A DNA stretch of 64,000 nucleotides from Halobacterium sp. KA-4. GTDB lineage: Archaea > Halobacteriota > Halobacteria > Halobacteriales > Halobacteriaceae. Under the pieces are notes generated by a model. It made no database searches and was not told the DNA's origin. It worked only from the letters and a program-made list of their open reading frames with translations. This document shows, piece after piece, positions 2,788 to 61,617 of this stretch. The stretch spans positions 1-64,000 of the forward strand of contig NZ_JAJJZG010000005.1 of the NCBI RefSeq assembly GCF_021028995.1. Reading direction: 5' to 3'. Within the stretch, counting starts at the first letter, position 1. Each line of letters opens with the position of its first letter. The translations under genes and the position numbers were made by a program.

Positions 2788-2891
2788 GCTTCACCTCCGA
2801 CGACTCTCATTCTGCTTCATGCCGTGGGAACGCCGGGAAAGGCACGCTCAGTCCGGCCGTAACCGATTGGAAAGCCGGAATTGAGTGGACT

Positions 2892-2996
2892 GAAAGGGGC
2901 GGTGGGCTCGCGCCTGCGTGGCCGTCTCGCGACGCAAGCACCGCAGCGTAGCGAGGAGCACAGCGAGCGAACGACCGCGAGCCCGCCGGGGCTTTC
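2892..2996 (+). repeat. Structured intergenic repeat, copy A (GAAAGGG...GGGGCTTTC)
   Basis: The element opens with GAAAGGGGC (2892) and closes with GGGGCTTTC (2988-2996). The outer GAAAG pairs with CTTTC. Inside, GGTGGGCTCGCG (2901-2912) pairs with CGCGAGCCCGCC (2976-2987): eleven Watson-Crick pairs and one G-U. The 63-nt loop is made of GAGCG/AGCGAG-type haloarchaeal repeats. It fills most of the 309-bp gap between rqcH and pelota. Two related elements occur at 6810 and 61309 with unrelated stem sequences. Function unknown: it could be an RNA, a terminator or attenuator, or a small non-autonomous mobile element. Confidence 0.7.
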
Positions 2997-6678: not shown

Positions 6679-6809
6679 ACCGGGAGCCGCGGACGGAAGG
6701 CGGTTAACCGTTCGGGGTGCGTGTTCGTGGCTTCGGTAGGCAGGTGCTCTCGAGAACGCCTCGAAAGTCCCACCCGTCGCCCGTTGGACAACCGGTAGCG
6801 GGGCGGATT

Positions 6810-6906
6810 GAAAGGGAGCGACTGGCTTCGCGAAGCACGACAACGTAAGCACTACAGCGAGCGAAGCGCGCAGCGAGCCGCTCGACCGAAGCCAGTCGGG
6901 GCTTTC
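6810..6906 (+). repeat. Structured intergenic repeat, copy B
   Basis: It opens GATTGAAAGGGAGCG (GAAAG at 6810-6814) and closes GGGGCTTTC (6898-6906). The inner stem CGACTGGCTTCG (6819-6830) pairs perfectly over 12 bp with CGAAGCCAGTCG (6887-6898). Stem sequence differs completely from copy A while ends and architecture are kept. It lies in the 343-bp gap between the divergent RNase Z-like and Lhr-like genes, which otherwise contains only promoter-sized DNA. Confidence 0.7.
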
Positions 6907-7021
6907 GAGGTGTCGAAGACCATGGTCAGTCCAGAAACAGCGAGGCGGACCAGATACGAACAGCGCGATTTGCCTAGCGGCGTCAGACACTTGCCGTACG
7001 GGAGCCAAGCACACGCGAACG

Positions 7022-41835: not shown

Positions 41836-43881
41836 ATGAGCGACGCCCGCCCACGAATACTGCTGGTCGAGGACAATCCCGGTGACGCCCGCTACATCCG
41901 CGAACTGCTCGACGACGCCGTCTCGCTGGAAGCGCGCTCGTTCGACGATGGCGTGCTCGTCGACCGCGACGACCGCGAGGAGAACGACCCAATCGTCCAC
42001 GAGACGCGCCTCGAGGACGCCCTCGACCACCTCGACGACGCAGGGGCCGACGTCGTCCTCCTCGACCTCGGACTCCCGGACAGCACGGGTCTGGAGACGC
42101 TCACGACGTTGCTCGACCACGAGAAGGCCGTCCCGGTCGTCGTTCTCACCGGGCTCACCGACCGCGAGGTCGGGATGGAAGCGTTGCGTCGGGGGGCCGA
42201 GGAGTTCCTCGTCAAGGACGAGATCAACTCCGAGTTGCTCGTGCGCTCGATTCACCACGCTATCGAGCGGCGCGCGCACCGCCGCGAGCAGAAGCGCTAC
42301 GAGACGCTCATCGAGGAGTCCACGGACGTCAACGCCATCACGGACCCGGATGGAACAGTCCAGTACGTCACGCCGTCCGTGGAGCACGTACTCGGCTACG
42401 ACCCCGACGAGTTGGTCGGCGAGAACGCCTTCGATTACATCCATCCCGACGACCGCGTCGCGGTCCGCGAGGAGTTCGACCGGCTCGCCGGGGACCCCGA
42501 CTACCGCGCGACCGTCGACTTCCGATTCCGCTGTGCGGACGACTCGTGGGTGTTCCTGGACGCGCGCGGCCGAAACCTCCTCGACGAGCCCGCGATAGAC
42601 GGATTCGTCGTGTACACACGTGACGTCACCGAGCAACGCGAGTACGAGCGCCAACTGGAAGCGCAGCGCGAGCGCCTCGCCGCGCTGAACCAACTGAACG
42701 ACGTCGTCCACGGGGTCGCGGGCGCGGTCGTCGACCAGTCCACCCGCAAGGAGATCGAGCGCATCGCCTGCCAGCGCCTCGCAGAGTCGCCGTCCTACGA
42801 ATTCGCGTGGGTCGGCGAACCCGACCCCGAGACCCAAGCGGTGAACGTGCGCGCGAGCGCCGGCACCGACGGCTACCTCGACGAAGTGTCGCTGTCCGTC
42901 GACCCGGACGACTCGGCTAGCGAAGGCCCGACGGGGCGCGCATTGCGAACCGGTGAGATGCAGATTGTACTCGACGTCCACAACGATGGCGACTACGCGC
43001 AGTGGCGCGACGTCGCCGACGAGTACGACTTCCAGTCGTCGGCCGCCATCCCGATTCGCTACGAGGACACGACGTACGGTGTATTGAACGTGTACGCTAA
43101 CCGTTCGGACGCGTTCCGCGAGCAGGAGCGAACTGTCGTCGAGCACCTCGGCCACCTCGTCGGACACGCCATCGCGGCCGCCGAACGAAAGCAGGCGCTG
43201 ATGAGCGACGCGGTCGTGGAATTGGAATTCCGGATTCGAGAGATTGCGGACGCAATCGGTGCTGGCACCGTCCCGGAGACGCCGATAGAGCTGGAACGAA
43301 CGATTTCCGTCGACGAGGACGAGTTCCTCGTCTACGGAACGGTCGACGACGGCGGCGTCGACGAAGTCGAACAGCTGGCGGAGACGGTGCCGTTTTGGGA
43401 GTCAGTCACCACCGTCGGCGAGGACGTCGACGGCGTCCGGTTCGAACTCCGGCTTTCGGACCCACCGCTGATGTCGGAGGTGGCGTCACTGGGCGGGTCG
43501 GTTCGCCGGGTCGTCATCGGCGAAGACCTTCGGCTGACCGCCCAGTTCCCGCAGGATACGGACGTGCGGGAAGTCGTCGACGCGCTTCAAAACGAGTACG
43601 ACTCCGCGGAGGCGGTGGCACGCCGCCAAGTCACCGAGCGCGACGAGCGCCCCGGTCGCCTCGCCGACGTCTGGTCGGAGGAACTGACGGACCGCCAGCG
43701 TACCGTCATCGAGACTGCCTACTTCTCGGGGTTCTTCGAGTGGCCGCGCGCGACGAGCGGTGAGGACGTCGCTGACTCGCTGGGCATCTCTGGGCCGACG
43801 TTCTCACAGCACCTTCGCGCCGCCGAGAACAAGATTTTCGCGCGCCTCGTCGGCGACGACCCCAGCGATTCGTCGACGTAA
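41836..43881 (+). CDS. Receiver-PAS-GAF-HTH regulator of the Bat (bacterio-opsin activator) family
   Basis: 681 residues. Receiver (1-125, phospho-acceptor D77 in VVLLDLGLPDST), PAS (about 150-275), GAF (about 290-455), a Bat-type middle domain (IRDEV-like FRIREIADAIG...) and a C-terminal HTH_10 helix-turn-helix (ELTDRQRTVIETAYFSGFFEWPRATSGEDVADSLGISGPTFSQHLRAAENKIF). Bat proteins activate genes under low oxygen or light. Third gene of the signalling cluster; a transposon begins immediately after its TAA, which may have clipped or altered the C-terminus. Confidence 0.92.
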   Translation: MSDARPRILLVEDNPGDARYIRELLDDAVSLEARSFDDGVLVDRDDREENDPIVHETRLEDALDHLDDAGADVVLLDLGLPDSTGLETLTTLLDHEKAVPVVVLTGLTDREVGMEALRRGAEEFLVKDEINSELLVRSIHHAIERRAHRREQKRYETLIEESTDVNAITDPDGTVQYVTPSVEHVLGYDPDELVGENAFDYIHPDDRVAVREEFDRLAGDPDYRATVDFRFRCADDSWVFLDARGRNLLDEPAIDGFVVYTRDVTEQREYERQLEAQRERLAALNQLNDVVHGVAGAVVDQSTRKEIERIACQRLAESPSYEFAWVGEPDPETQAVNVRASAGTDGYLDEVSLSVDPDDSASEGPTGRALRTGEMQIVLDVHNDGDYAQWRDVADEYDFQSSAAIPIRYEDTTYGVLNVYANRSDAFREQERTVVEHLGHLVGHAIAAAERKQALMSDAVVELEFRIREIADAIGAGTVPETPIELERTISVDEDEFLVYGTVDDGGVDEVEQLAETVPFWESVTTVGEDVDGVRFELRLSDPPLMSEVASLGGSVRRVVIGEDLRLTAQFPQDTDVREVVDALQNEYDSAEAVARRQVTERDERPGRLADVWSEELTDRQRTVIETAYFSGFFEWPRATSGEDVADSLGISGPTFSQHLRAAENKIFARLVGDDPSDSST

Positions 43882-43883
43882 AC

Positions 43884-43909
43884 AGCCTCGGGCGCGGTGG
43901 CCCGAGGCT
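43884..43909 (-). ncRNA. End hairpin, candidate 3' part of a TnpB guide (omega/re) RNA
   Basis: AGCCTCGGGC and GCCCGAGGCT pair over 10 bp around a 6-nt loop, 12 bp beyond the tnpB stop in the tnpB direction. In IS605-type elements the TnpB guide RNA scaffold spans the tnpB 3' end and this terminal hairpin, and the guide is read from the flanking DNA beyond the end. Here that flank is the end of the Bat-like gene. The hairpin might also serve as a terminator for that gene. Expression is not shown. Confidence 0.5.
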
Positions 43910-43921
43910 TTTGTAATTCCC

Positions 43922-45253
43922 TCAGCCGTGCGCTAACACTCCCTGTTCCGCGAGAGAACGGGATGAGGGTGGGCGGCTTACACGCCCCGACCCGGACAGA
44001 CGCACCAACCTGACCTGCGGCTGGGTTTTGTGAGTCCGGTAATTCGTATTGTTATCGTCGAGTTTCACCTTCTCACGCCACGCGATGTTCACCGACGCAT
44101 TCCGGTCAGCGTGATCCTGCACCACGCCACACTCGTCGTTCGGACACCGGAACCGCCGCCCCTGCCGATCCCCACGCTCACCACAGCACGAACACGTCTT
44201 CGAGTTGTAGTACGCGTCCACCGCATCTGTCGGAAGTTCCCGCCACGTCGCCTTGTACGAGACAAATTTCTCGAACTTGTGGAACGGCAGTTTGTGCAAC
44301 CGGCGGTTCATATACGATCCGTACTGCATTTCCTCGCGGATCCCCTCCATGTCCTCGAACACGATAACCGGGTTCGGGAACTGCTCCGCGAACTCCACGA
44401 CAGCACGTGAGAGCCGATGCAACACCCACTCGGTGAATCGTTCCTCTTTGCCACCGAGTTTCCGGTAGACGCTCGTCTTGCCGTGTTCCTGACAGCGTTT
44501 CGTGATCGTGTGGTAGCGTTGGCGTTCCTGCTTGACTTGTCCGTAGTCGAGGACGAGTGTGCCCTTCGTCCGCATCGTGTCACGGTCGAGGGCGGTGAGA
44601 GCCACGTTGCGCTCGTTGATGTCCACGCCAACAAGCGTGTCGCTGGTGTCGGGTTCGGGCACGTTGAACTCGCGTGTGACCGTGACGTGTAGGTAGTACA
44701 CGCCATCGCGGTACAGGAGTTCGGCCTGCCCCACATCCACCTCCTCCGACGCGAGAGCGTCTCGAAGCTCGTCCATTACGTCCGGCTCGCCGCGCAGGTG
44801 GCCCTTCACCTTCTTGTAGGGTTTTGGGCTGATGCGGACCTGGACGCGGTTCGAATCGTCATCCACGGTGAGGCGGTAGCCTTCGGTGTGGGCCATCACG
44901 AGCGGATACGCACCCGATTTGTCCGTACTCGGCGGCGTCGGCTTGCCGCCATCAGGATCATCTTGGTTCTCCCACCACTCTTTGAGCGATTGGTAGGAGT
45001 CCCATGTTTGGAGGGCTTTGCCGACGACCGCGCACTTGTTGTTCCGTAAGAAGTCGTCGCGGTCAACCTCCTTCTGTATCTTGGTGCGAGTGTACCCTTG
45101 TTGTGTGAGGTGGATGGTGTCGTTGAATATCTCGCGTGACGCGAGGCGGGCGTCGTGAAGCCACGACCGCTCACCAGACGCTATGTGGAGACGCGTCTGA
45201 ATGGTTTTCGTGGCTTCTTCACCCACACTTTGACAATCGATCCAGACTGTCAT
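43922..45253 (-). CDS. tnpB: TnpB, RNA-guided nuclease of IS200/IS605 elements
   Basis: 443 residues from ATG 45253. The RuvC-like catalytic residues are all present: D in VGVDINERN (about 208), E in VIVFEDMEGIRE (about 300) and D in DHADRNASVNIAW (about 383). The zinc ribbon CSCCGERGDRQGRRFRCPNDEC (about 355-376) is complete. The C-terminal tail (PPSSRSLAEQGVLAHG) is typical of haloarchaeal copies. TnpB cuts DNA matching the guide beside a transposon-associated motif, helping the element persist after excision. No frameshift, so probably active. Confidence 0.93.
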   Translation of the reverse strand: MTVWIDCQSVGEEATKTIQTRLHIASGERSWLHDARLASREIFNDTIHLTQQGYTRTKIQKEVDRDDFLRNNKCAVVGKALQTWDSYQSLKEWWENQDDPDGGKPTPPSTDKSGAYPLVMAHTEGYRLTVDDDSNRVQVRISPKPYKKVKGHLRGEPDVMDELRDALASEEVDVGQAELLYRDGVYYLHVTVTREFNVPEPDTSDTLVGVDINERNVALTALDRDTMRTKGTLVLDYGQVKQERQRYHTITKRCQEHGKTSVYRKLGGKEERFTEWVLHRLSRAVVEFAEQFPNPVIVFEDMEGIREEMQYGSYMNRRLHKLPFHKFEKFVSYKATWRELPTDAVDAYYNSKTCSCCGERGDRQGRRFRCPNDECGVVQDHADRNASVNIAWREKVKLDDNNTNYRTHKTQPQVRLVRLSGSGRVSRPPSSRSLAEQGVLAHG

Positions 45254-45270
45254 AAATGTAGGGAATAGGG

Positions 45271-45669
45271 ATGGAGGAGTACCGCAGTCACGCACATTCG
45301 GTCAGTTCCTGCAAGTATCACTTCGTCTGGTGTCCCAAGTATCGCCACCCGGTTCTCGATATAATGGAGGCCGATGTGCGAGAGTTGTTTGCGGAGACTG
45401 CCGACCACTTCGGTCACGGAATTCTGGCGTTGGAGAATGCAAACGACCACGTCCACCTATTCGTGCGAGCAGACCCGAAGCACAGTCCAGCGGATATTGC
45501 CTGGCAGTTCAAGTCGTTCTCAGGAAAACACCTACTGGAACGGTATCCCGAGATTCGGGAGTCGTATTTCTGGGGTGGCGGATTCTGGAAGGTCGGATAC
45601 TACGTTGGAACGACAGGAGCGGTGTCGGAGGAAGTGGTTGAACGGTATATCGAGGAGACAGAACACTGA
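45271..45669 (+). CDS. tnpA: TnpA, Y1 HUH transposase (IS200 family)
   Basis: 132 residues. The HUH motif is H60-V-H62 (NANDHVHLFV), and the catalytic tyrosine lies in WKVGYYVGTTG (around 110-111). Starts with SHAHSVSSCKYHFVWCPKYR, the usual opening. TnpA cuts and rejoins single-stranded element ends during lagging-strand synthesis. The frame is intact. Diverges from tnpB with starts 17 bp apart, the arrangement of class IS605 elements. Confidence 0.94.
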   Translation: MEEYRSHAHSVSSCKYHFVWCPKYRHPVLDIMEADVRELFAETADHFGHGILALENANDHVHLFVRADPKHSPADIAWQFKSFSGKHLLERYPEIRESYFWGGGFWKVGYYVGTTGAVSEEVVERYIEETEH

Positions 45670-61308: not shown

Positions 61309-61482
61309 GAAAGCCCTCGGTCGTCTGCGCTGCCGGAAGACGTTCCGGCTCACTGCGTTCGCGGACTGCGACTTCCGTTGTCACGCTCGCAGTGCTCGCG
61401 TGACTCCCGCGTCTCGCTGCGCGCGTTCGCGATGCTCGCGTGCTTGCTTCGTCGGGGTTCCCGCAGACGCCCTCGCCCTTTC
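61309..61482 (-). repeat. Structured intergenic repeat, copy C (minus strand)
   Basis: Read on the minus strand it begins GGCGGATTGAAAGGGCG (GAAAG at 61482-61478) and closes GAGGGCTTTC at 61309. The inner arms GGGCGTCTGCG (61472-61462) and CGCAGACGACC (61329-61319) pair over ten of eleven positions. The 132-nt loop is longer than in copies A and B and contains a second GGAACG/CGTTCC-type helix. It occupies the middle of the 399-bp gap between divergent aroA and the M24 peptidase gene. Confidence 0.65.
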
Positions 61483-61617
61483 AATCCGCCGAGGGTGCCG
61501 GTTGTGTACTCCGGCGAAACACAGAACATAGGTCGACTGGTTAGGAGGTAAATCGACTACCCATGCCGAACAACCGGAGGCGGTAGGATTTTGCAGCGGC
61601 CGCGACGACTCGCGTAC

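Follow-up and report, generated by a model that had tools for sequence, protein, structure and literature searches.

The window, that is, the whole 64,000-nt stretch of Halobacterium sp. KA-4 DNA analyzed here, carries three copies of a hairpin element: copy A at 2892-2996 (plus strand), in the gap between rqcH and pelota; copy B at 6810-6906 (plus strand), between RNase Z and a helicase gene; and copy C at 61309-61482 (minus strand). These positions, given by a sequence-only reading of the DNA, were borne out, with GAAAGGG..GGGCTTTC at each; the base directly before is T in all three. Across the window, TGAAAGGG occurs three times (0.54 expected) and GGGCTTTC five times (1.28 expected). The gene names rqcH, pelota, RNase Z, helicase and aroA are a reading of translations, not a database result. 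The copies had been placed in the window's widest gene gaps: the gaps are indeed wide (309, 343 and 399 bp by our own gene calls), but they are not the widest. The proposed fold, GAAAG pairing with CTTTC around an inner stem, holds for copies A and B, whose inner stems of 10-13 bp fold, and in part for copy C, which has about 70 extra nt in its arm; the minimum-energy fold of that copy keeps the inner stem and lacks the outer pairing.

Two other features of the window deserve mention. Ahead of most arms (e.g., at 6800-6814) lies GGCGGATTGAAAG, whose likeness to the 3′ end of type I CRISPR repeats (ATTGAAAG) is probably coincidence. At 43857-45657, an Rfam sot2652 match (43857-44043) overlies a minus-strand gene of TnpB size; the adjoining Y1 transposase gene (45298-45657, plus strand) makes this an IS200/IS605-type element.

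Architecture of the unit

The three hairpins are each an arm of a larger unit, built symmetrically from an outer inverted repeat, a left arm, a centre and a right arm. The parts recognizable in the window are:

2837..2841, no strand assigned: probable relic of the outer end of copy A's left arm (GAAAG), the arm itself being lost; the exact relic is as we infer it
2850..2891, plus: copy A centre segment, AGTCC...GGACT, matching the ~43-nt centre between the divergent arms of full units
2892..2996, plus: right arm of copy A, a hairpin with class 1 ends and a type I core (80.9 bits with covariance model R1)
2934..2967, plus: conserved core of the copy A arm, GCAAGCAC ... GAGCACAGCGAG, with a 2x3 internal loop (near-invariant columns of the 42-arm alignment)
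6759..6767, plus: copy B left outer end CCTCGAAAG, left arm absent (from the sequence; sister species have the full left arm)
6768..6809, plus: copy B centre segment, TCCCACCCG...GGGGCGGATT
6810..6906, plus: copy B right hairpin arm, type I core (covariance model R1, 86.5 bits)
6907..6915, plus: copy B right outer end GAGGTGTCG, within the outer inverted repeat (consensus downstream flank GAGGTGTT)
61309..61482, minus: copy C single arm, class 2 ends GAAAGGGCGAGG...CCGAGGGCTTTC, type I core, extra insert of ~70 nt
61483..61505, minus: right half of the copy C centre, CAACCGGCACCCTCGGCGGATT

An intact left arm is found at the orthologous intergenic region of copy A in two other Halobacterium genomes (L184, L185). 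In order, a full unit consists of the outer repeat AACACCTCGAAAGCCCC, left arm, centre AGTCC...GGACT, right arm and GGGGCTTTCGAGGTGTT, its outer inverted repeat reading ..CCTCGAAAGCCCC / GGGGCTTTCGAGG.. overall. The arms are ~100 bp long (range ~85-175 bp) and end in GAAAGGG/GGGCTTTC; the centre is either ~43 or ~200 bp. Many copies are divergent pairs with their GAAAG ends 31-47 nt apart (mostly class 1), while class 2 pairs mostly have about 180-300 nt, sometimes more, between these ends. Within a pair, CCCCTTTC of the left arm is complementary to GAAAGGGG of the right, and within a unit the outer GAAAGCCCC is complementary to GGGGCTTTC; to judge from this complementarity, the unit, when single-stranded or extruded, could fold as a four-way junction. 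The G/G (GGG/GGG) internal loop described earlier would then be accounted for, because those bases pair with the C's of the other arm.

Two stems (an outer one and a second), a core that hardly varies and a variable tip make up each arm. Two end classes and two core types exist: one core, nearly invariant in the 42-arm alignment, is GYAAGCAC / GCRCARC with a 2x3 loop, and the second is CCCCTATC...GATATG. Of 65 divergent units, 63 combine two arms of one end class, and in none are the two arms more than 85% alike. The ends had been regarded as fixed, but they covary too, since GAAAG/CTTTC alternates between genera with CAAAG/CTTTG (in Halorubrum-like genomes, the genus name being a guess) and GGAAG/CTTCC (in another genus). 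The ends of the centre are conserved in sequence, and a covariation check of their pairing is therefore uninformative.

Some units depart from this plan. In some Haloarculaceae-type genomes (L039, L061, L075, L133), the outer end (CCGAGGGCTTTC plus ~39 nt) stands two to three times in tandem beside the unit, downstream of the right arm. The centre of the L061 unit (genome G281) also holds an insert of ~220 bp bounded by CTCTGTAGGATCGCT / AGCGATCCTACAGAG, apparently another small mobile element, and the two outer ends of g24-type units are unlike each other.

Distribution, covariation and arm turnover

The occurrence of the hairpin family is far from chance. The pattern GAAAGGG-N70-100-GGGCTTTC is found at 24 places in the Halobacterium sp. 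KA-4 genome (none for the reversed control) and in 291 of 391 Halobacteria genomes (reversed control, 0-2 per genome), with the highest copy number, 191, in G281. Because loci were found by strict end patterns, decayed copies are under-counted. A covariance model built from 42 arms recovered 28 arms in the home genome and matched 48 of the 53 Halobacteriales in a 295-genome draw from the phylum; it matched nothing outside Halobacteriales in that draw, genomes not listed being taken as outside the order. One home-genome locus (L014) has a long flank in common with Halobacterium sp. CBA1126. The arm is also present in five viral contigs (L178-L182), possibly proviruses or host DNA; no match was found in the phage collection searched. 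No description of the family was found in the open literature searched, the closest being a paper on Haloquadratum mobile elements, and the family seems to be undescribed there.

The view of these hairpins as a structured family with covarying stems is well supported by the covariance alignment of the 42 arms, in which 204 two-sided changes were counted against 59 in shuffles. In that alignment, 92% of cells pair and slid controls collapse; an arm's own stem halves match at 10.9, against 5.2 for chimeras of two arms. A comparison of 61 close arm pairs gave 60 paired and 4 unpaired double changes, with 37 wobble and 36 unpaired singles; between the closest arms, the changes are singles with few doubles. 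Because paired doubles so outnumber unpaired ones and the closest pairs carry mostly singles, pairing is evidently restored over time, whether through selection or because one half of a stem templates its partner. The isolated compensatory changes between related arms and the near-invariant core suggest that some protein or RNA recognizes the structure, which counts against reading the family as a mere mobile repeat.

A stronger claim, that compensating changes are the mark of selection on structure, fares less well. Unrelated whole arms have been substituted at orthologous sites, and each replacing arm brings both stem halves with it, which weakens the argument from covariation: much of the “compensatory change” is cassette exchange. 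Some real pairwise compensation exists too; the 60-to-4 ratio could come from selection or from arm-templated correction.

Turnover of this kind can be followed at individual sites, orthology being based on flank alignments. The 14 sites common to genomes G000 and G319 include seven with unrelated arms, three with core swaps in which the outer stem was kept, and two with in-place core inversions (L009/L220 and L024/L238) between 9-12 bp inverted repeats. At the rqcH-pelota site of copy A, other Halobacterium species have full pairs with different arms, and in one species without matching copies the gap measures 66 bp. The RNase Z-helicase site of copy B holds full pairs with differing arm combinations in four sister species (G067, G035, G353, G023); a deletion fuses two half-arms in one species, G319 has a near-complete deletion, and others have nothing. 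The arms at these two sites are drawn from shared stem families: 68 arms fall into 33 such families, several of which recur at at least five sites and on either side of the unit, and the copy C arm belongs to one family with a G319 arm from another locus (L239). Near-identical arms at unrelated sites have little identity past the arm, with the boundary near the arm ends. Old units thus persist at fixed intergenic sites across species, their arms and cores being replaced, shuffled between sites and inverted. Stem sequences vary while pairing stays because arms are swapped, copied and flipped between these sites.

Mobility and competing explanations

Of the roles first suggested for the element (small RNA, attenuator, or non-autonomous mobile element), the last is backed by the sister species G319, which has 95-96% identity in flanking genes. 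This genome has about ten near-identical arm-bearing copies of 227-282 bp, whose shared sequence extends no further than GGYRGTGTTCAGATAAG / CTTATCTGAACACYRCC; of the nine complete ones, seven are flanked by perfect 8-bp target duplications. Two of the inserts (L222 and L231) each interrupt a called gene, whose ORF closes once the insert and one duplication are removed. Full-length elements of 697 bp in the same genome have the same ends, including GTGTTCAGATAAG, and their own 8-bp duplications (CTACCTAG, AAGTTGAT, GCTATATT), and encode an IS6-family transposase (192 bits, cut-off 125). The G319 copies, too short to encode a transposase, thus resemble MITEs mobilized by the resident IS6 element, and may have been moved in trans by its transposase.

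IS6 was rejected as a general mover and is supported for G319 only. Exact GTGTTCAGATAAG is absent from the window part of contig C51, copies A, B and C lack IS6-type ends, as do most other copies, and copy number across genomes does not track IS6 content: G281, with its 191 copies, has one Y1 gene and only weak IS6 matches. Since the ends are missing and copy number is independent of IS6 and Y1 content, neither is supported as the mover of most copies. A further difference from an IS6-mobilized MITE is the interior, a modular hairpin cassette that is exchanged on its own.

Another possibility is that these are REP/BIME-type repeats (REPINs) spread by a RAYT (Y1, TnpA-REP) transposase. The likenesses are high copy number, intergenic position, palindromic sequence and head-to-head dimers with unlike partners, as known for REP dimers (PMC3733652) and as seen here in 65 divergent units. 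However, the ends are not GTAG or CGTC tags, the arms measure ~100 bp against 20-40 bp for REP palindromes, and the Y1 transposase (PF01797) is absent from three genomes with 32-70 copies (G165, G336, G232). An association with RAYT/Y1 was rejected on this last ground, and the REP/BIME reading is largely refuted and very improbable. PATEs (palindrome-associated transposable elements), compared by description only, are likewise non-coding, palindromic and known from haloarchaea, but carry palindromic ends of IS605 type and no inverted terminal repeat. The closest described analogue, by description rather than sequence, is SMR-A of Haloquadratum walsbyi (including HqIRS42/43/55), which is about 110 bp long with prominent inverted terminal repeats, occurs in many copies, makes no target duplication and sits inside palindromes of other mobile elements (PMC3119063). 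The arms described here fit this in size and in their nesting in palindromes, have inverted ends and many copies, and may be alike in lacking a target duplication, none having been seen for them; SMR-A copies are near-identical, whereas these arms are highly diverse around a conserved core.

A structured non-coding RNA or cis-regulatory element (small RNA, attenuator or mRNA stabilizer), spread by mobile elements and held by selection on RNA structure, would account for the strong covariation and for the paired double changes. A link to particular gene contexts was not seen. Of 158 groups, 155 are intergenic, and their flanks (88 co-directional, 44 divergent, 23 convergent, by gene calls of a simple scorer written for this analysis and checked against the window) match the background of gaps of at least 150 bp (213, 121 and 66), with no preference for gene starts, ends or orientation; a terminator or promoter role by position was rejected for the same reason. 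Where the flanking genes are co-directional, 43 single arms point with transcription and 23 against it, which hints weakly at a transcript-level effect (two-sided binomial about 0.02, one of several comparisons made). Against an RNA role stand the unrelated or inverted arms at one site in sister species, the deletion or absence of elements from the same sites in other species, and the lack of any Rfam family match at the elements. The small RNA and attenuator options are unsupported, and selection on an RNA is a distinctly improbable explanation.

Somewhat less improbable, though still unlikely, is a dedicated recombinase acting on folded hairpin DNA, which would exchange and invert cassettes at docking sites in place of general gene conversion. 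This would fit the exchange boundaries near conserved arm ends, the in-place core inversions between 9-12 bp inverted repeats, the conserved internal loop within an otherwise variable hairpin, and the fact that the two sides of nearly every unit share an end class. On the other hand, no enzyme candidate was found, several high-copy genomes having no Y1 transposase genes; the units examined contain no gene; and short inverted repeats invert without a dedicated enzyme in other systems. A class-wide hairpin-cassette system, in which a putative enzyme recognizing the internal loop in folded DNA exchanges and inverts arms at fixed intergenic docking sites, is an equally tentative idea; its logic would be comparable to that of integron cassettes, but without genes.

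Taken together, the evidence points to a non-coding mobile DNA repeat more than to a small RNA or attenuator, and the hairpin is likely to be an arm of a modular mobile repeat of Halobacteria whose arms are exchanged between fixed sites. Turnover of the arms in this modular repeat may proceed by copying between dispersed copies, through ectopic gene conversion or template switching at hairpins, perhaps anchored by the short conserved arm ends. Pairing would survive such copying: an incoming arm supplies both stem halves, and one half can template correction of the other. The pattern can be explained without a host function, though one may exist.

The replacement of whole hairpins between loci can be the main source of strong covariation in an alignment, a caution for covariance-based discovery of non-coding RNAs. 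Nearly all of the Halobacteria sampled have this repeat in their intergenic DNA, and because its arms are exchanged and flipped at fixed sites, ectopic recombination in polyploid archaea becomes directly testable.
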